64,000 nucleotides of DNA from assembly GCF_002214465.1 (NCBI RefSeq), contig NZ_CP015101.1:1061013-1125012 (forward strand). The letters run 5' to 3'. Positions 4,849 through 28,007 of the stretch are shown piece by piece. Position numbers and translations under genes: made by a program. The DNA is from Thermococcus barossii. Its GTDB lineage: Archaea; Methanobacteriota_B; Thermococci; Thermococcales; Thermococcaceae. Position 1 is the first letter of the stretch. The number at the start of each line of letters is the position of its first letter. Below the pieces are notes generated by a model. It saw nothing but the letters and a program-made list of their open reading frames with translations, searched no databases and had not been told where the DNA came from.

Positions 4849-5472
4849 ATGGTGATGAAGGTGAAGTTCAGGGGCAAGGCCTTTGGTAACATCGTGAGGA
4901 TGGAATTCGACATCCTCACGCTGAGCGAGCTTAAAATAGACGACCTGCGAGACTTCGATATAAACTCAATCAAGATAGAACTCAAGCCCACTTCTTCTGG
5001 TATCAAGGTCATCGGCATCTGGGAGGGTACTATAGAGGATGCCGGGGAGGGGATAAAGAAGGCCCTCCAGGAGAGCTACAAGCTCCGCGAGAGGATTCTG
5101 AACAGGATAAAGAGTAAAACTGAGGCTATAAGGAGCACTATGCACCAGCTCGGCTTTAAGGAGGCCGTTGAAGGCTACGGAAGCATTCTTCGTTTCACAA
5201 AGAAGGTCGGTGCGTACGAGATAATAGTCATAGCCTCGACGACAGAGGACGTTGTGCGCGTCGAGGTTTACGGCAATGATAAGAAGATAATAAGCCCGGA
5301 GATAGAGAGCATTTTCGAGGACGTCGAGGTCGAGGAGCTTGAGGTGTATGACTTCGAGGACAGCAAGGAGGAGAGGCTCGTCATAAACCTGGAGATACCA
5401 AAAAACGAGGAAAAGCCGGAGAGAAAGATAGTAGAAGCCATAAAAATGATAGAGAACATGCTGATGACATAG
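4849..5472 (+). CDS. Hypothetical protein, 207 aa
   Basis: Not recognised. The product is acidic and appears to have three parts: an N-terminal alpha/beta part, a central helix (about residues 60-90, KKALQESYKLRERILNRIKS) that may form a coiled coil, and a C-terminal beta part ending in a long helix. There is no signal peptide or membrane segment. A TATA-like TTTTAAA at 4823-4829 is centred about 23 nt before the ATG, suggesting a leaderless transcript. An alternative start is ATG 4855. Its stop directly abuts, tail to tail, the stop of the Mrr-repeat protein, so the two genes are convergent with no spacer. Coding is credible because the frame is open and codon use matches the neighbours. Confidence 0.7.
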   Translation: MVMKVKFRGKAFGNIVRMEFDILTLSELKIDDLRDFDINSIKIELKPTSSGIKVIGIWEGTIEDAGEGIKKALQESYKLRERILNRIKSKTEAIRSTMHQLGFKEAVEGYGSILRFTKKVGAYEIIVIASTTEDVVRVEVYGNDKKIISPEIESIFEDVEVEELEVYDFEDSKEERLVINLEIPKNEEKPERKIVEAIKMIENMLMT

Positions 5473-7611
5473 TCACTTGTATTTGCTATCCAGCTGAATC
5501 TGCTTCAGCTTCGCCGTTATTCCCTTTATAGGTGCCGTGTCTTCGCTTATTATTTTTCCTGTCCTGGTATCTATCCGAGCGTAGTAGAACCTCTCGGCGC
5601 CGGAGACCTTGATGTTTATGTACCCCCTGTCCTTGTAGTGGGTCAGCCGCTCGGTCTTGACCTCATCCTCCCCGAAGGCCATCCTCAGGTGCTCGTGGTA
5701 CATGGCCTCTATCGCCATCTCCGTGAAGCGCACGTTCTCTTCAATAACCTCTCCGGTGGTCCTGTGGAGAACCAGGGTTCCAATCTTCGTTTTGCCGGTG
5801 AACTCGACTTCCCAGTTGTCGTTCAGGGATATCGAGTCTATGCTCGCCTCCTCATCGATTTCTCTCGCGCGCTCCAAGGCTATCTTCTCGGCAAGTTCCT
5901 TCCTCAGGACGCGGTCAACCTCTTCAACGAGCTTACCGTCCTTGCTGAGACGTATTGTAACCACGTGCCTTTCATTCTCGGCCTTGAGTACGTACTCTGC
6001 ATCCTTTCCTTCAACGGAGGTTATCTCAAACTCTGGATACCTCTCGGCCACCAGTTCCTTGGCCCGCTCCGGGGTTATCTCAACGAGGTAGTCCAGAACG
6101 TCACCTGTGGCGCCGTCCACCTTAACTACCGCCCTGCCATCGGGGCTTTCAAGGGTCAGTTCCAGGTACTTGTGCTCCAGCACGCGGTACGAGCTCATTT
6201 CAAGGTTTCTGAGCGGAAAGTTACCCTCTATGACGTCCTTGGCATTTTTGAATGCCTCCTCCGGTGAGGGAAGCCTTCTGACCTCGGAGTGCTTTCCAGT
6301 GGTCAGGTCAACCTCAAGGACCGCTATTCCATCATCCAGCAGAATATCCGCCACGGCCACCTTCTTGCCCTTCTCAAGGTTCATCACTTTTCCACGCGGA
6401 TAGGTCTTTCTCAGGAGTTCGTCCAGCGCCTCGTCGCTCAGAAGGGCCTCAAGGCTGAGGGGCTTTCCCGTATACTCGTTGAAGGTAATCTCAAAGGAAA
6501 AACTCCTGGTTCTACCGGATATCTTCACCCTGCCCTTGTCCCTCTTCAGCTCCTTTTCAAGGACTTCCTCGCCGGTCTGCTTGAGGACTATTTCCTCGGT
6601 CTTTTCAATGAAGTATTCGTCAGGGAGGGGGCTTATCTCGAACTTAACCTCACCGCTTTCCAGATTGACGGTGGCCTTCGCTGTGTTCTCACCGACCTTA
6701 AGGTCGAGCTTGGCGAGCTTTGGGACGTAGACCTTCTTCCGTTCATGGATTGAAATCTTCCCCTCAGCAACCCCCAGCTCTCTGGCGGCCCGTTCCTTGA
6801 GTATCAGAACCGCCTCGCTCGGACTTATTGGAACCTCTATGTACCTCTCGGTCGCCTGGATGGTGGACGAGTCGTTGAGGAGGGCCTTTGTCACCGGGAC
6901 GCTGAGTTTCCTGTCCCCTGTTGCACGCAGAACTATGTCCTCCCCCGAGAAGACCACTGCCCTGTCCTTCTCCTCTCCTCCCTCCACAGACCAGGAGAAG
7001 ATGTAGGCGCTGGAGAGCGTCACGGAGAGTGCCTGAAGGCTCATCCCGGAGGGTTTGATTGGGTACTTAGACGAGGCAAAGGAGGCGACCTTTTTGAACA
7101 CCTCCTGGGCGGAAAACTCGTGGAGGAGAGGAGCATCGAGCTCAAATTCATTCAGGGGACTCTTTTTCTCGGATTTCCTCTTGGCGCTCTCGGCCATCTT
7201 GAGGAGCTCCTCCGGTGGCTCAAGGGAGTAGTTGTGGAAGAGCGAGATGAGCTTTTCCCCGTCCCAGGGGATTATCCTCCCCCTGTACTCCCTGGAGATG
7301 AGAACTTTGGCGTCCTTGGTGAACCCCGCGGTTGAGATGAGTATCCCCTTGTCAGCCTTGTACTTGTCCACGAGATCAGCGAAGACGTTGACGTCACGCG
7401 ATGATGCGAGCCCCTTCTGGTGAACGGCTATGACGAGCTTCTCCATGCCAGCTATGGGATCGTCCCTTATGGCCACGATGTCTATTCCCCAGTCCTTCTT
7501 GCTTGAAACCTTCTCGTACTCCCTGAAGCCCATTCTTTTGAGCAACTCGATTACGTTTTCAATGAGAACATCCTCAGGTGCCATCATTATTATATCCTGG
7601 GTCCACGGCAT
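5473..7611 (-). CDS. Mrr-like restriction-endonuclease domain fused to tandem PepSY-like repeats
   Basis: A 712-residue protein. Residues about 8-130 resemble the Mrr/archaeal restriction-endonuclease fold: helix LIENVIELLKRMGF, then WGIDIVAI (Asp of the PD-(D/E)XK core), VIAVHQKG (QxK motif) and GILISTAGFTKDA, which is typical of Mrr-type proteins. After a charged linker the rest is a string of beta-hairpin units each ending in a motif like D-x-x-TG-x-V/I (VDLTTGKH, VDGATGDV, HRTTGEVI, IDTRTGKI and others, at least seven), as in PepSY-like domains. ATG 7611 is preferred because GGGTGA precedes it. Mrr-type domains cleave modified DNA, whereas PepSY-like repeats usually bind peptides or inhibit proteases, so the combination is odd. 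There is no transmembrane segment. Function is unknown; a DNA-acting role is inferred from the N-terminus only. Confidence 0.72.
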   Translation of the reverse strand: MPWTQDIIMMAPEDVLIENVIELLKRMGFREYEKVSSKKDWGIDIVAIRDDPIAGMEKLVIAVHQKGLASSRDVNVFADLVDKYKADKGILISTAGFTKDAKVLISREYRGRIIPWDGEKLISLFHNYSLEPPEELLKMAESAKRKSEKKSPLNEFELDAPLLHEFSAQEVFKKVASFASSKYPIKPSGMSLQALSVTLSSAYIFSWSVEGGEEKDRAVVFSGEDIVLRATGDRKLSVPVTKALLNDSSTIQATERYIEVPISPSEAVLILKERAARELGVAEGKISIHERKKVYVPKLAKLDLKVGENTAKATVNLESGEVKFEISPLPDEYFIEKTEEIVLKQTGEEVLEKELKRDKGRVKISGRTRSFSFEITFNEYTGKPLSLEALLSDEALDELLRKTYPRGKVMNLEKGKKVAVADILLDDGIAVLEVDLTTGKHSEVRRLPSPEEAFKNAKDVIEGNFPLRNLEMSSYRVLEHKYLELTLESPDGRAVVKVDGATGDVLDYLVEITPERAKELVAERYPEFEITSVEGKDAEYVLKAENERHVVTIRLSKDGKLVEEVDRVLRKELAEKIALERAREIDEEASIDSISLNDNWEVEFTGKTKIGTLVLHRTTGEVIEENVRFTEMAIEAMYHEHLRMAFGEDEVKTERLTHYKDRGYINIKVSGAERFYYARIDTRTGKIISEDTAPIKGITAKLKQIQLDSKYK

Positions 7612-7692
7612 CACTCTCACCCATGAAAGCGAAATCAGGCACTAAAATATTTTTGAACCTCATTTTATAAATCTCTTTCCCCCGAAATCCGT

Positions 7693-7709
7693 TATCACCC
7701 GAAGTGTTC
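7693..7709. promoter_or_regulatory. Thermococcales glycolytic motif (TGM) upstream of pgk TATA box
   Basis: TATCAC, five bases, then GTGTTC, against the known consensus TATCAC-N5-GTGATA (10 of 12 matches). It lies directly upstream of the TATA-like TTTTTAAT at 7718-7725. The sugar-responsive regulator Tgr/TrmBL1 binds this motif; placement upstream of the TATA box is the activating (gluconeogenic) arrangement. Confidence 0.62.
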
Positions 7710-21965: not shown

Positions 21966-22112
21966 TCAAGGCGCTTTATGTTTGAATGCCTGGCGTAACT
22001 CCAACAGTTGATATGTCATTCAAATGCCAGTTTTAATCTTAGTATTCTGCAGGCAAAAGTGTTATATGCAATTCTCAATAATTATAGTTGATAACCTCTT
22101 TGGGGAGGGCAA

Positions 22113-22286
22113 ATGGGGAAGTGGGTAACGATGCTCCTACCTGGGCTTCTCCTCCTGGGCGGCTTTCATACCCTCAAAGCGGAAGCAACACAAACCACCG
22201 GCCAAGTCCAGGCAACCCCTCAGGACTGCTCCCGCATCGACGTTAACGTCCTTCTAAAGAGGGTAGCTGGCCGGCCGGGGGTATAG
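22113..22286 (+). CDS. Short secreted peptide, 57 aa, first gene of the propeller island
   Basis: Starts with ATG behind GGGGAGGG (22102-22109); a TATA-like GTTATATGC lies at 22061-22069. The product begins with a signal peptide (MLLPGLLLLGGFHTLKA, about residues 7-23), leaving a mature peptide of about 34 residues with one Cys. The stop is 3 nt before the start of the next gene, so it heads an operon of four. It may be a real small exported protein or the stump of a longer one; the abrupt end in RVAGRPGV favours neither. Confidence 0.5.
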   Translation: MGKWVTMLLPGLLLLGGFHTLKAEATQTTGQVQATPQDCSRIDVNVLLKRVAGRPGV

Positions 22287-22289
22287 TCC

Positions 22290-23324
22290 ATGAATGTAAT
22301 GAGAAAGTACCCGGTATTGTTTTTATTTTTGCTCATTCTAATTTTAGCGACCTCGGTTGTTTATGAAGAATATCCAAAGCTTAGCAACAACAATGAAGCA
22401 ACCTCCTGGGAAGTGTCCACTAAAGAAGAAACAGAGCAGACTCCAACAGCAATAAAGGACAACTCCACTCAAACACCCCTGCCCGGCCCCTTGATCGAAC
22501 TCGATGAAGGGTTTAAAGGAGTGAATCTCTCAGGAAAGTCCAGAGGTTTTATCACGTGTCCGCAGTGGTTAGAGGTCAGATGGAGGCGAGATATTTCACT
22601 GAATAACACCGTTCTCCTTAACTTCACCCTCTTTGTCAACAACACCCCTTATCTCAACCTAATCCTGGAAGAGTTTTCCGGCTCCTACTTCTGCATTCCT
22701 GAGGGAGTAGTCGTGTATTCATACTACCCAGGAGAGCGGAGAAGCTCCATGGCGCTGTTTGACTACAACCTGACCCCGCTATGGAGAACCGAGCATGGGG
22801 GTTCGCCAGTTGCGTACAAAAACGGAAGTATAATTCTCCTCGGAGAAGACTGCCTTTACCTGATAAACGTGGAAACCGGTAAACTCCGTAAGAGGATTTG
22901 TGTGCATGAGTACATCTCTCATTTCAAGTTTGTGGGTGATAGGTTGTACATAACGGCGGCTCATCTCAAAGGCAAGGCCCACCTTTACGTTTTTGAGGGC
23001 AGTGACAGGAGGGAAGTCCCCATCATAAACATTCCAACTTTCGAACTCGTTGGAATACGAATGCCCTTCGATGTGAATGAAAAGTATATTGCAGTGGCCT
23101 ACTTTCTGTATCCAACCGACGGAGCCGAGAAAAACGGCGTTTGCGTGTTCACAGCAGATAGCCTAAGGAAAATCGCCTGCAGGGAGTTTGAGGAGGGAGA
23201 GAGGCCGCTAAAAGTCAAACTCGCGGGAAACGTGGTTTACGTCCAAACAACCAATGGGGTGAAAGCATACAAGATACTAAGTTTGGAACAATCTAGCATG
23301 CAGGGGACTGACGACGAGGTGTAG
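22290..23324 (+). CDS. Secreted beta-propeller-like protein, tandem paralogue 1 (344 aa)
   Basis: First of three tandem paralogues. An N-terminal membrane segment or signal (LFLFLLILILATSVV, about residues 9-23) is followed by a Thr/Pro-rich spacer (EQTPTAIKDNSTQTPLPG), then a beta-rich extracytoplasmic domain with PQQ-type propeller features: FDYNLTPLWRTEHG, DCLYLINVETGKLRKR and VKLAGNVVYVQTTNGVKAYKI near the end. Several Asn-x-Thr/Ser sites and paired cysteines fit a glycosylated, disulfide-stabilised surface protein. Base composition is clearly more AT-rich than the flanking genes. The last roughly 70 nt belong to an exact 89-bp repeat shared with the next gene. Function unknown. Confidence 0.72.
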   Translation: MNVMRKYPVLFLFLLILILATSVVYEEYPKLSNNNEATSWEVSTKEETEQTPTAIKDNSTQTPLPGPLIELDEGFKGVNLSGKSRGFITCPQWLEVRWRRDISLNNTVLLNFTLFVNNTPYLNLILEEFSGSYFCIPEGVVVYSYYPGERRSSMALFDYNLTPLWRTEHGGSPVAYKNGSIILLGEDCLYLINVETGKLRKRICVHEYISHFKFVGDRLYITAAHLKGKAHLYVFEGSDRREVPIINIPTFELVGIRMPFDVNEKYIAVAYFLYPTDGAEKNGVCVFTADSLRKIACREFEEGERPLKVKLAGNVVYVQTTNGVKAYKILSLEQSSMQGTDDEV

Positions 23325-23344
23325 ACTATGGACAAAAAGAAAAA
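23256..23344 (+). repeat. 89-bp exact direct repeat, copy 1
   Basis: Bases 23256-23344 are identical to 24210-24298. The unit covers the last codons of a propeller paralogue, its stop, the 3-nt gap, and the first 17 nt of the next gene. Flanking coding sequence is only moderately similar, so the perfect identity points to recent duplication or gene conversion. Confidence 0.9.
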
Positions 23345-24278
23345 GGCAATAATCTTAGGATTTGTTCTTCTGCTCCTGTTTTATTTTTCTCCCAAGGGAC
23401 TACTAATACCCACAAATGCAAAGGGAATATCTTTTGGGGACAGTATCTCAGGGTTCCTGCCGTGTCCACAAAACCTTCAAGTGAGAGCAGAATACTACCA
23501 ATACCGGCTCGATCACTTTGTTAACTTTACACTCTCCTACGATGAAAGCAGGAGGGCAAACATAACCCTTGAAGGTGTCTCTGGGGAACATATTTGCATT
23601 CCAGAAGGGGTTTTTGTTTATTCGTATTACCTGGGTGATCCTGCGATGGGAATCAATGCTGCATTGTTTGATTACAACCTGAGTCTTAAATGGTGGCGAC
23701 ACTTCGATGGTTTTCCTGACCAATATGTGCAGAACTGTCTTGTGTTCGTTAAATCCGACCCGTACGGCTCGAATTCTTGCATTTATTTTGTGGAACCGTC
23801 AACGGGAAGCATAAAGGAAAGGTATTGCCTTGGTGTCCCCAAAGCCCACATTTCCCGTGTTCAAATCGTTGATAACAGGGTATATGTTACCCTGGGGTAT
23901 TACAGTGTTGGAACCTTCTCTGGAGAGACAAAGGCATTTTTATACCTCATAAATGGGAACGATGTGAAGGGAAAAGAAGTTGCCACTATCGAAGGTCATC
24001 CCCTTGGGGTTAGATTGCCGCTCGACACAAACGGAAAATACGTGGCTGTAGCATACTATCTCCACGATGATATGGAAAACGAGAAGAACGGAGTCTGCGT
24101 TTTCACCGCGGGTAAGCTAATCAAAATCGCCTGCAAGGAATTTGGAGAGTGGGAGCGGCCGATAAATGTTAAACTTGAAGGAAACATCGTTTACGTCCAG
24201 ACTACGAGGGGGGTGAAAGCATACAAGATACTAAGTTTGGAACAATCTAGCATGCAGGGGACTGACGACGAGGTGTAG
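23328..24278 (+). CDS. Secreted beta-propeller-like protein, tandem paralogue 2 (316 aa)
   Basis: Same plan as its neighbours: short basic start (MDKKKKAII), hydrophobic segment (LGFVLLLLFYFSPKGLL), then propeller-like repeats (LFDYNLSLKWWRHFDG, CIYFVEPSTGSIKERYC, LEGNIVYVQTTRGVKAYKI). It ends in the same tail, SLEQSSMQGTDDEV, as paralogue 1, because the 3' ends of both genes and the starts of their downstream neighbours lie within identical 89-bp copies. N-glycosylation sites and six or more cysteines are visible. The gene looks intact. The role at the cell surface is unknown. Confidence 0.72.
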   Translation: MDKKKKAIILGFVLLLLFYFSPKGLLIPTNAKGISFGDSISGFLPCPQNLQVRAEYYQYRLDHFVNFTLSYDESRRANITLEGVSGEHICIPEGVFVYSYYLGDPAMGINAALFDYNLSLKWWRHFDGFPDQYVQNCLVFVKSDPYGSNSCIYFVEPSTGSIKERYCLGVPKAHISRVQIVDNRVYVTLGYYSVGTFSGETKAFLYLINGNDVKGKEVATIEGHPLGVRLPLDTNGKYVAVAYYLHDDMENEKNGVCVFTAGKLIKIACKEFGEWERPINVKLEGNIVYVQTTRGVKAYKILSLEQSSMQGTDDEV

Positions 24279-24298
24279 ACTATGGACAAAAAGAAAAA
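24210..24298 (+). repeat. 89-bp exact direct repeat, copy 2
   Basis: Second copy of the unit at 23256-23344, offset by 954 bp, which is a multiple of three. Recombination between the copies would delete or add one whole gene while preserving every reading frame. Confidence 0.9.
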
Positions 24299-25184
24299 AT
24301 TAGCAACCTTGGGATTTGTTCTCTTGGCCTTGGTATATTTCCTGCCCAAAGGCCTGCTTACTCCGGTAAATCCCGATGAAGCGTCTTTTGACGGCCTTAA
24401 TGTCTCAGCAAAGTGTGGCTCCCTGAATATTCAGACCGCCTCCATTCTTGAGAATTTCTCCTGTGTTTTTACGGTTTCATCGGCAAATGGGACACAGACC
24501 GTTAACTACACTCTGCAGGGTATAAGTAGTGGATATCTCTGTGCCCGTGAAGGATTACTTCTGTATGCGTACTTCACATCGGATAGTCAATCCTCGATGA
24601 TTTTCCTCGACTACAACCTCAGCGAGAAGTGGAGACGGGAGCTTCCAGCGTATCCGCTCAACTACACAGGCGAAGGACTGATTCTCGTGAGCAACCCAAC
24701 CTTTGGTTCTTCTGGGAGTTCATGCGTCTACGTTTTGAACATCTCAACCGGTCGGCTTTCTGGCTGGTTCTGTCCCGATGTGCTCGGAGGCCATGTCTCG
24801 GACGTTAAAATCACAGGAGGCAGAATATACGTCACCATTGGAGAGCCGAGAAGACCTCCGCTGGAGACCCACGCGTTGATATACATGAAAGACGGCGAGA
24901 AAGTCAAAAAAGCGGAAATTACCAGCATTTCGGGGGAGGGCGTGGGCATCAGACTTCTCATAGATGCCAACGAGAAGTATGCCGTTGTATCTTACTTCCT
25001 AGCCAACGAAAGAGGGGATGAGAAGAACGGAATTTGCGTCTTTACAGCGGGGAGCTTAAGGAAAATCGCCTGCAAAGAGTTCAAAGAGGGAGAACGCCCA
25101 ACAAAAGTCAAACTCACGGGAAACATCGTTTACGTCCAAACAACCAACGGGGTGAAAGCCTACAAAATATTCAGCCTGTGGTAA
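24282..25184 (+). CDS. Secreted beta-propeller-like protein, tandem paralogue 3 (300 aa)
   Basis: Third member. N-terminus MDKKKKLATLGFVLL is nearly the same as paralogue 2, then come a shorter ectodomain with FLDYNLSEKWRRELPA, CVYVLNISTGRLSGWFC and VKLTGNIVYVQTTNGVKAYKI. It ends in FSLW without the SSMQGTDDEV tail of the first two, so it may represent the ancestral 3' end. Base composition is nearer to the host average than in paralogues 1 and 2. Three-nt gaps between the genes indicate a single operon. Confidence 0.72.
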   Translation: MDKKKKLATLGFVLLALVYFLPKGLLTPVNPDEASFDGLNVSAKCGSLNIQTASILENFSCVFTVSSANGTQTVNYTLQGISSGYLCAREGLLLYAYFTSDSQSSMIFLDYNLSEKWRRELPAYPLNYTGEGLILVSNPTFGSSGSSCVYVLNISTGRLSGWFCPDVLGGHVSDVKITGGRIYVTIGEPRRPPLETHALIYMKDGEKVKKAEITSISGEGVGIRLLIDANEKYAVVSYFLANERGDEKNGICVFTAGSLRKIACKEFKEGERPTKVKLTGNIVYVQTTNGVKAYKIFSLW

Positions 25185-25225
25185 TGGATGGCGTTTCAAG
25201 ATGCCGGTGTGAGGTGAGCGGATGT

Positions 25226-25816
25226 TTAGAGCACACCTTCTCTAACAAGTCTCTCCCTTATCCTCTCAAACTCACCGAGTGAACCCCTCACTATCGGATA
25301 CCTCGGAACGAAGGGGCACGATTCTTCAGGTTCGATGCTTATATCGAACGTGCCAATCTCCTTAGCAATTCTAACTATCTCTTCCTTGTCAAGACCAATA
25401 AGCGGCCTCAGGATCGGAAGGTCGCTAGCCCTGCTTATTATCATAAGGTTGTCAAGGGTCTGGGAAGCAACTTGGCCGAGGGAATCGCCTGTGACTATAG
25501 CTCTTGCCCCAATCTCATGTCCCACCCTGCACGCCTTCCTGAGCATCATGTATTTACAGAAGAGGCACGTCCACTTTCCCTTTCCAATCTCCGCCAGCTT
25601 CGAAAAAACCGGTGCCTGTTCCTCGTAGGCATCTACTATAACCGCCTCATTCAGCTTTCCGTACTTTCCGAGAACCTCGCAGAGCTCAAAAACCTTGGAC
25701 TCCTTCGTACCGCTCTGCCGGAAGTGAACGGGGGTTATCTCAAAGCCTTTCCTGAGCATGAGGTATATCGCCACGGGCGAGTCTATGCCCGAACTGAGCA
25801 GCGCCACCGCTTTCAT
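25226..25816 (-). CDS. Stand-alone ThiI-type PP-loop sulfurtransferase domain, 196 aa
   Basis: Contains only the adenylating PP-loop part of ThiI: ALLSSGIDSPVAIYLMLRKG at the N-terminus (SGGxDS-like ATP loop), WTCLFCKYMMLR with CxxC near residue 84, GDSLGQVASQT near 110, LDKEEIVRIAKEIGTF near 142 and a further Cys in PEESCPFVPRYP near 162. It lacks the NFLD/THUMP tRNA-binding domains and any rhodanese domain. A full-length ThiI lies 2.2 kb away on the same strand. It might act on tRNA with another protein providing binding, or on a different substrate. The ATG start is clear; the 3' end faces the propeller island. Confidence 0.82.
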   Translation of the reverse strand: MKAVALLSSGIDSPVAIYLMLRKGFEITPVHFRQSGTKESKVFELCEVLGKYGKLNEAVIVDAYEEQAPVFSKLAEIGKGKWTCLFCKYMMLRKACRVGHEIGARAIVTGDSLGQVASQTLDNLMIISRASDLPILRPLIGLDKEEIVRIAKEIGTFDISIEPEESCPFVPRYPIVRGSLGEFERIRERLVREGVL

Positions 25817-25858
25817 GTTCGGAAGAAGGGATGGGAGATATATGAAGCTTTCCTCAAC

Positions 25859-26509
25859 TTAAGGTTGGAGTCCACCAGAACTGATCTCGATTCCCCAAAC
25901 CTTTGATTCGTACGGGACCCCAAACATCAGGTACAGCTCGTAGTTAACCCTCCATACTCTCAGAAATTCCTTGAACCGGTAAGTGGCCTCCACAGGCAGA
26001 AGGACGACCCATGGGGCCAGATAATGTCCCTCCAGTTCTTTCAGTATACCACTTTTCCCATCCCTCCCGCGAAGTGCGAAGCTGAATTTGTTCCTCTCGT
26101 TCTTTGTCATCCCCCTGACATCGAGGACGAACAGCGCGTATCCCTCTCCGTTCATCAGCTCATGAACTGGCCGTTTTCTAATCAGGGAATAGCCAGTAAT
26201 CACTATCCCCGGAACAGCAAGGTAGTTGGGATTCCACATTTGCTCAAGGTTTATCGCCTTAACGTCCAGCTTTTCGTGGGGAAACCCTGTATCTACCAGC
26301 ATCTCCTTGAACTCAAAGGAGAGTTCAAACCTCTCAGAATCGTCCGCCCCCCGGAGCACGACCATGAAGTCAAAATCGTTGGGGGAGTCTTTCCCCTGGG
26401 TCGTGGATCCATACAGAACCACATCAAAGACCTTTCCATGCTCCCTCTTGAATTTACTCGCGGCCTCTTCCAGTTCACTTAATCCTATCGGTAAGTTTGA
26501 GAACTTCAT
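25859..26509 (-). CDS. Nucleotidyltransferase-fold protein (MNT, likely antitoxin partner of HEPN)
   Basis: A 216-residue protein with the polymerase-beta-type nucleotidyltransferase core: VVLYGSTTQGKDSPNDFDFMVV (residues about 30-50) supplies the GS motif and the two metal-binding Asp of D-x-D. MNT proteins paired with HEPN proteins act as antitoxins by adding AMP to the toxin. Here the start overlaps the 3' end of a HEPN-like gene by 35 nt. The C-terminal half (FLRVWRVNYELYLMFG) is longer than in minimal MNTs (about 100-140 residues), so it may have extra functions. The third catalytic Asp is probably in HEKLDVKAI, near residue 80. Confidence 0.78.
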   Translation of the reverse strand: MKFSNLPIGLSELEEAASKFKREHGKVFDVVLYGSTTQGKDSPNDFDFMVVLRGADDSERFELSFEFKEMLVDTGFPHEKLDVKAINLEQMWNPNYLAVPGIVITGYSLIRKRPVHELMNGEGYALFVLDVRGMTKNERNKFSFALRGRDGKSGILKELEGHYLAPWVVLLPVEATYRFKEFLRVWRVNYELYLMFGVPYESKVWGIEISSGGLQP

Positions 26510-26817
26510 TCCTCAACGCCCCCACCTCATTTTCTGTGAGCCGTCTTTCATACGCGTCCCGGTAAAAATCAAAGAACTTACTGACAACGCGGTACAGATC
26601 ACGGTAGTGAAGCCTCAGAATTGCAAATCGTTCACTGTGGTTCTTGGGTTCAAGATTCAGATCACGCTTGATGATGTAGTCGCATATCCCAACAAGGGCT
26701 TTGAAATACAGTATCGATGCGGAATTGTATCTGCCTTTTTGAAGGCGTCTTCCCCGTCTCTATGTATTCCCAGATATTTGCCTTCAGGTCATCAAGACTC
26801 ACAGGCACATTTCTCAC
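26475..26817 (-). pseudogene. HEPN-domain protein with a frameshift (partner of MNT)
   Basis: Two minus-strand frames join into one sensible protein of about 114 residues: the first frame from GTG 26817 gives VPVSLDDLKANIWEYIETGKTPS, the second gives GRYNSASILYFKALVGICDY and, further on, SERFAILRLH, containing the HEPN R-x6-H motif, ending at TAA/TGA 26475-26477. The switch falls in a run of five T (26736-26740); removing one base restores a single frame. The HEPN RNase toxin is therefore inactive as read, unless the run is a sequencing error or a slippage site. TATA-like CTTAAATA (minus strand, about 26846-26853) predicts a leaderless message. It overlaps the MNT start by 35 nt. Confidence 0.68.
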
Positions 26818-26847
26818 CGTGTAGTCATGCCTACAACAGCACGGTAT

Positions 26848-27416
26848 TTAAGGATTTCTGTAGGAATTCCTACGGGTGCCAAACTGGAGCAGGCCGATGT
26901 AAACAAACCAGGTCAGTATCGTGGAGGCACCGATGAGCTCAGGAATCGCGAGGCCCTTAAAGATCCCAGCCTTCACGAGGTATAGCATCAGAGCGAAGGT
27001 GAGAACCGCCAGAACGCTCCAGACGTAGCCGGCGAAGAGCCCCTTCCGTCCGAGCTTTATGCCAACTATCGCTATATCCGCCAGGGCCAGAACGTAGAAG
27101 AAGACCGCCGCCGGGCGTGCGGCGCGTACTCCTCAGGAAAAACTCCAACGAGGAACAGGAGAACCATCGCGAGGGGCATCAGGTAAGCCAGACCGTTCCT
27201 CAGCGCACCGAGGGAGGCCACAAAACCCAGAACGGCAAAGACCATCAAAAAACCGTTGAAGTAGTAGTTCACCGGATTCCGTATTGAACCCATGTCGCTC
27301 AGGGCGTTGTCTGTGAACGAAAACCACGGGTTCTGGTTCACAACGATGAGGAGTCCGACGATGAAGATGAGCGGGAGGAAGATGGCCACGTACGACCATA
27401 AACGCTGAAGAGTCAT
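26848..27416 (-). pseudogene. DUF998 family membrane protein with a frameshift
   Basis: The first frame from ATG 27416 encodes typical DUF998 sequence (DNALSDMGSIRNPVNYYFNG, GVFPEEYAPHA) and then runs into nonsense; continuing in the next frame from about 27115 gives AAVFFYVLALADIAIVG and two more helices, ending at TAA 26848-26850. Lack of one base in the GC-rich stretch at about 27111-27120 explains it. The complete protein would have about 188 residues and six helices. DUF998 members are uncharacterised membrane proteins. The last bases overlap the promoter of the HEPN gene. Real decay and sequencing error cannot be separated from one sequence. Confidence 0.72.
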
Positions 27417-27421
27417 GGGGA

Positions 27422-27799
27422 TCACTTCACAAATTCCACGTTTTCCATGTTTACAAACTCCTTATCGCCCGTGAGAAACCTCATTTCCATGTCCTTTGCT
27501 AGAACGTAACCCAGACAATCTATCAAAGAAAGCTTTTTCCCTTCCTTTTTGGCCCGAAGTCTTAGGGTTGATGCCCGGACGTAATGCGTTGTATCGGGCG
27601 TCAGGATAATAAAAACGCTCCTCACGAGTTCCACGATAGCTTTAGCTTTCTTCTCTCCAAAGTCCCTTGTCAGGGCATACGACAGCTCTAGCAGGTTGAA
27701 TTCGGTTGTATACAGTTCCTCTTCAGCATATGTTGAGTAGTTGGGGTTTCCTCTGAGGATTTCAACGAGGGCGTAGGTATCGGCGAAGAACTTAGCCAT
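27422..27799 (-). CDS. PIN-domain ribonuclease toxin, VapC family
   Basis: A 125-residue PIN protein with all acidic residues expected for the metal site: FADTYALVE (Asp about 6), TEFNLLELSYAL (Glu about 37), LIDCLGYVLAK (Asp about 91) and LTGDKEF (Asp about 109). VapC toxins cut tRNA or rRNA when freed from their antitoxin. The start overlaps the end of the VapB-like gene by 8 nt, the classic toxin-antitoxin order (antitoxin first). It looks intact. Confidence 0.88.
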   Translation of the reverse strand: MAKFFADTYALVEILRGNPNYSTYAEEELYTTEFNLLELSYALTRDFGEKKAKAIVELVRSVFIILTPDTTHYVRASTLRLRAKKEGKKLSLIDCLGYVLAKDMEMRFLTGDKEFVNMENVEFVK

Positions 27800-27965
27800 G
27801 TGCCTCCCTCAGTTCATCCTTCAGCTTTTGAGGGTCAACGTCCCAGTCCTTCAGAATTCCAAAGACTTCAACCTTTATGAGCACCCTGCTCTTTTCAGGC
27901 AGGTTGAGCTTTTTTACAGGTTTTAAAATTCCGTTTTCATACACGGCCTCAACGACTATTGGCAC
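27792..27965 (-). CDS. VapB-type antitoxin (DUF104/AF2212-like), 57 aa
   Basis: Small protein beginning MPIVVEAVYENGILKPVKKL, the DUF104 pattern of a short beta domain that dimerises and binds DNA, and ending in a helix (DPQKLKDELREAHG) that would insert into the PIN toxin. GTG 27965 is selected because GGGGTGAG (27969-27976) lies immediately upstream; a TTG at 27983 would add six residues and swallow that site. The toxin gene overlaps it by 8 nt. Confidence 0.82.
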   Translation of the reverse strand: MPIVVEAVYENGILKPVKKLNLPEKSRVLIKVEVFGILKDWDVDPQKLKDELREAHG

Positions 27966-28007
27966 GTTCTCACCCCATAACAACTTGTTTTTTCCATTTT
28001 TAACCTT

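Follow-up and report, generated by a model that had tools for sequence, protein, structure and literature searches.

A Thermococcales protein family predicted to join an Mrr-type fold, altered at its canonical active site, to an array of PepSY-like units

The window (the whole stretch of 64,000 nucleotides that was analyzed) encodes a protein in which, we conclude with high confidence, an N-terminal Mrr-type domain that has lost its canonical active site is followed by eight PepSY-like units and a basic C-terminal helix. This anatomy is much firmer than the functional part of our account, a cytosolic, non-catalytic scaffold or inhibitor, which stands about an even chance of being right. The family is real, inherited, and specific to the Thermococcales. 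Automatic pipelines would label it "restriction endonuclease" even though all its members lack the canonical active site.

Results

Features of the gene and its surroundings are collected in Table 1. An in-frame GTG at 7620 on the minus strand is an alternative start that would give a protein of 715 amino acids, and residue numbers throughout (protein P0001) count from this GTG, 3 residues longer than the ATG form. An AlphaFold2 model of the full chain, built with 13 sequences, had a mean pLDDT of 89.1 and consisted of an N-terminal alpha/beta domain, eight units, and a C-terminal helix; its pTM of 0.49 makes the relative placement of the domains uncertain, and the alignment from which the structures described here were predicted is shallow. 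Statistics throughout are uncorrected for the number of comparisons. The sequence-only reading had proposed an Mrr pattern at the N terminus fused to at least seven PepSY-like repeats and had looked to a full-chain prediction for both. Each part was borne out by the model, with the repeat count now at eight.

Table 1. Coordinates of the pseudo-Mrr/PepSY-array gene, its parts, and its neighborhood (window positions, except for the scars, which are numbered within their own loci)
Feature	Positions	Strand	Basis or remark
CDS, pseudo-Mrr/PepSY-array protein	5473..7611	-	712 aa, from the ATG at 7611 to a stop codon that ends at 5473
Mrr_cat (PD-(D/E)XK fold) domain, residues 23-127	7240..7554	-	PF04471, model, BFVD matches
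D47, first catalytic position	7480..7482	-	Alignment: kept in 34/34 orthologs
A65, at the Gln/Glu position of the catalytic QxK motif	7426..7428	-	Alignment
H67, at the Lys position of the catalytic QxK motif	7420..7422	-	Alignment
PepSY-like unit 1, elaborated, weakest assignment	6835..7110	-	AF2 model
PepSY-like unit 2	6634..6822	-	AF2 model; profile similarity to unit 4
PepSY-like unit 3	6439..6621	-	AF2 model; profile similarity to unit 7
PepSY-like unit 4	6271..6435	-	AF2 model; profile similarity to unit 6, E=4e-6
PepSY-like unit 5	6076..6264	-	AF2 model
PepSY-like unit 6	5905..6072	-	PF11396 match, residues 515-564; AF2 model; profile comparison
PepSY-like unit 7	5725..5901	-	AF2 models; Foldseek to PepSY structures
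PepSY-like unit 8	5530..5721	-	PF03413 match, residues 654-693; AF2 models; Foldseek
Conserved basic C-terminal helix (within KGITAKLKQIQLDSKYK)	5482..5520	-	Ortholog alignment, AF2 model
Convergent 207-aa hypothetical gene	4849-5472		Abuts stop codon of array gene; highly conserved
Two deletion scars between pgk and the 207-aa neighbor, gene-less genomes	L093 243-335; L094 266-376		

The N-terminal domain has the PD-(D/E)XK/Mrr fold. Pfam Mrr_cat (PF04471) matched it at E=1.5e-16, well above the cut-off, and structural comparison with BFVD found a resemblance to phage restriction endonucleases (rmsd of 1.9-3.7 A over 119-134 columns). Intact Mrr relatives used as alignment controls carry the catalytic motif D...Q-x-K, which appears as YLQAK in a plasmid restriction endonuclease (L084) and as IQVK in Mrr proteins of the Thermococcaceae (L086, L087). 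The window protein reads IAVH at the same site, and its three positions are D-A-H. While the first D is invariant among orthologs, the Q/E position is A in 13, K in 16, L in 4, and S in 1, and none of the 34 aligned orthologs has E, D, or Q at this metal-ligand position. The K position is H in 25, the window protein among them, and K in 9. The sequence-only reading had named a lack of conserved active-site residues in homologs as evidence against its nuclease, and these counts show such a lack.

The domain is nevertheless constrained. The dN/dS of the REase domain was 0.037-0.125 in five pairwise comparisons and, in most pairs, no higher than that of the rest of the protein. Because strong purifying selection persists despite loss of the canonical active site, we take the domain to be a pseudo-nuclease under constraint, presumably kept for some role other than cutting. 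It is net acidic, and a charge of -4 does not seem to favor DNA binding. The PADLOC profiles PDC-S02 and mREase_IV matched only the Mrr region of the protein and, covering profile positions 214-323 of 346 and 423-510 of 544, fell short of a whole-profile match.

In the AF2 model, the six units from 3 to 8 are each a helix plus four strands, unit 2 has a single long first strand, and unit 1 is the least certain of the eight. When units 7-8 were modeled alone with the C-terminal helix (pLDDT 95.4, pTM 0.83), the best Foldseek match in the PDB was 4exr at E=4e-4, the sole match with E<0.001; lower in the list were 5boi (YpeB), 4hbr, 4k61, 4ipb, and 4fr9 (DUF2874/BLIP-like). The models and these matches agree on the PepSY fold of a helix with antiparallel strands. 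Whole-chain TM-scores of units 7-8 to the PDB matches were low (0.28-0.35). Such values would be expected from matches of individual units in a different tandem arrangement, and the modeled orientation does seem to differ from that in the matched PepSY structures. Separately, the top Foldseek matches of the entire chain were beta-propeller peptidases (TM 0.07-0.08, rmsd >29 A), which we rejected as an artifact of repeated four-stranded sheets.

Of the two profile searches that the sequence-only reading had suggested, PF04471 succeeded as described, and PepSY (PF03413) reached E=6e-4 and 20.5 bits in the window protein, below the Pfam gathering score of 24. That score was passed by some relatives, namely, the copy in genome G078 (25.9 bits) and the paralog L044 (26.2 bits), and PepSY was matched in 13 of 22 orthologs with a best E value of 5e-7. 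PepSY_like (PF11396) matched the window protein at E=0.006, also below its curated cut-off. Comparison of unit profiles with one another supported repeat homology for some pairs (U4/U6, E=4e-6; U3/U7, 8e-5; U2/U4, 1.2e-4) but not for every pair. Across orthologs, the basic C-terminal segment is the best-conserved part of the alignment. Searching the PDB by sequence, with profiles of the whole family and of the N domain, brought up nothing but chance hits, and no relative.

The protein is apparently cytoplasmic. Judged by hydropathy alone, it has no signal or transmembrane segment (highest 19-residue mean, 1.5), in agreement with the sequence-only reading, and so the hydrophobic segment that would mark the extracytoplasmic location of PepSY domains is missing.

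Matches to the gene were found in 65 of 94 Thermococcaceae genomes and in five of six genera, and extending the search to all 115 genomes in the set for the phylum added no carriers. A pattern-based scan of contigs returned records of Thermococcaceae/Thermococci only, at a low sensitivity that missed most known carrier genomes. No relatives were found among viral contigs and phages, and plasmids gave bare Mrr domains of Pseudoalteromonas and no full relative. Two weak "C-terminal-only" hits (G058:C43 and G069:C1) lie inside open reading frames resembling an RNA methyltransferase and were dismissed as chance. The literature searched, on Thermococcus PepSY/Mrr proteins and on inactive restriction endonucleases with NACHT, holds no description of the family; the earlier statement that no characterized system has this architecture thus stands for that literature.

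Sixteen genomes of one genus carry a paralog of about 30-35% identity, which occupies a separate locus, in most cases next to purA. In a midpoint-rooted tree the paralogs form their own clade with support of 1.0. Members (L043-L050, L053, and L067-L070) are full-length, with the nuclease core deleted. The PepSY array is kept and the C-terminal helix is recognizable. The D is lost and the K-bearing segment deleted, such that all three catalytic residues are gone in 13 of 13 paralogs, and none of the four scanned with Pfam matched Mrr_cat.

The gene and pgk lie side by side and divergently in almost every carrier. Most carriers also have the convergent 207-aa hypothetical gene, which has no significant match in Pfam or NCBIfam. 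We considered this neighbor as a partner and rejected it, as it persists after loss of the gene and is replaced in some carriers by an HD-domain-like gene. Pairwise distances of the protein correlate as well with pgk distances (Spearman 0.83) as with distances of the convergent neighbor (0.83). Their mean is 0.50, versus 0.21 for pgk; the protein evolves more than twice as fast. Between pgk and the array gene, positions 7693-7709 on the plus strand (TATCACCCGAAGTGTTC) match the Thermococcales glycolytic motif TATCAC-N5-GTGATA with 2 mismatches. The motif occurs upstream with at most 3 mismatches in 26 of 34 orthologs, a level of match also seen in about 11% of shuffled versions of the window stretch. 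The site probably serves the regulator of pgk and might also act on the array gene.

Twenty genomes without the gene were examined, some of them incomplete, as were some of those used for synteny. The pgk gene directly adjoins the 207-aa neighbor in 11 and the HD-domain-like gene in 3, and the remaining 6, all of genus g3, have neither neighbor. Remnants persist at two of the empty sites, residues 1-31 in G034 and residues 615-651 in G059. Broken copies occur in G028, G041, and G056 and split copies in G019 and G081; where a genome is a draft, such a copy could be an assembly error. Because of the empty sites and the two scars, we attribute the uneven presence of the gene at least in part to loss, whereas the sequence-only reading had offered patchy distribution as a sign of defense. 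Genus g3 has only two copies (L037 in G005 and L029 in G008); neither is near pgk, and the tree places one within g1, which suggests horizontal transfer. Apart from these two off-locus copies there was no sign of a defense-island or mobile context with patchy horizontal spread, and no conserved defense neighbor was found at the locus. We conclude that this is not a mobile defense gene but a dispensable inherited one that has been lost cleanly and repeatedly and occasionally transferred. Frequent loss implies a dispensable function and may leave room for roles in stress or defense. Elsewhere in the window, positions 22001-28000 have a lower G+C content (0.46-0.49, versus about 0.55) and are possibly an acquired segment.

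Discussion

Taken as a whole, the observations are best explained by a cytosolic, non-catalytic binding scaffold or adaptor that is not a nuclease, and we consider this as likely to be right as wrong. The pseudo-nuclease domain would be a non-cutting module for binding or dimerization, and its partner could be nucleic acid or another subunit. The array may bind protein or peptide partners, by analogy with extracytoplasmic PepSY/YpeB/BLIP-like domains; BLIP-like and propeptide PepSY domains are protein or peptide binders. The whole protein would then act as a cytoplasmic adaptor or an inhibitor-type scaffold. A bolder version, which we hold tentatively and at less than even chance, is that the family is an undescribed intracellular class of PepSY arrays in which the pseudo-nuclease anchors a multi-unit binding rod and the PepSY fold serves as a cytosolic regulator; one candidate role is to inhibit a protease or another enzyme in the cytosol.

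Whether the protein nonetheless belongs to defense was considered in two forms. The sequence-only reading had raised a defense protein whose Mrr-type nuclease is active and is triggered by a protein ligand; the array would be the sensor. The strong Mrr_cat match, the matches to PDC-S02 and mREase_IV, and the retention of D47 speak for such an enzyme, but QxK is lost in all orthologs, the gene sits at a fixed housekeeping locus with a pgk-like pattern of divergence and no conserved defense neighbor, and phages hold no relatives while plasmids hold bare Mrr domains only; we regard it as very improbable. Less improbable, but still unlikely, is a non-catalytic antiviral sensor or decoy that binds a viral protein and signals or blocks without cutting. 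Fast divergence and repeated loss fit a gene in conflict, and the domain is related to defense nucleases. Against this, synteny is stable, defense neighbors are absent, purifying selection is strong, and the pairwise counts give no sign of diversification.

Catalysis might also survive in altered form, as a re-tooled nuclease with a changed site made of D47 and H67 or, in the deeper genera, of KxK. In its favor, all 34 orthologs keep the D, and the confinement of their Lys position to H or K is not random. Against it, the metal-ligand position is free to be A, K, L, or S, which is what one would expect if no metal catalysis took place, and the paralog drops the site altogether. Moreover, we know of no PD-(D/E)XK enzyme with a site of either type. 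The re-tooled enzyme is thus a poor prospect, a shade better than the gated nuclease. Finally, characterized PepSY proteins are mostly extracytoplasmic, and the structures matched here include lipoprotein and periplasmic proteins, such that an exported or surface protein might have been expected. The chain, however, has no hydrophobic segment at its N terminus or internally and is fused to an intracellular nuclease fold, and we rank export lowest among the possibilities discussed. The non-catalytic scaffold or adaptor remains our preferred reading.

A selected pseudo-nuclease joined to a cytosolic PepSY array is a genetically testable case, and Thermococcus kodakarensis is a tractable model in the lineage (PMC7137780). 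The eight-unit chain, coming from a hyperthermophile, should lend itself well to structure determination and pull-down. The ligands of PepSY domains are poorly known.

How the family relates to known systems differs by domain. With the Mrr_cat restriction endonucleases (PF04471; the Pseudoalteromonas plasmid enzyme WP_010554750.1; L086 and L087), it shares fold and motif order, and the conserved D and a GF(T/S)K segment are common to intact enzymes and the family. Unlike those enzymes, the family has QxK replaced in every ortholog and a PepSY array attached, and it resides at the pgk locus, whereas the plasmid enzyme has restriction-modification neighbors. NA-iREase1 (PF22722, the NACHT-associated inactive restriction endonuclease), likewise an inactivated REase fold to judge from its Pfam name, was matched by 22 of 22 aligned orthologs; for the window protein the match was above cut-off (E=9e-7), yet it scored below Mrr_cat. 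Unlike in the NA-iREase1 context, the window protein has no NACHT domain in its chain and has the PepSY array instead. With PepSY/YpeB/BLIP-like proteins (PF03413 and PF11396; 4exr, 5boi, 4hbr, 4k61, and 4fr9), the fold of the unit is common, as judged by Foldseek for units 7-8 and by weak Pfam matches, but the window protein carries eight such units in one chain, without a signal peptide and fused to a nuclease fold.
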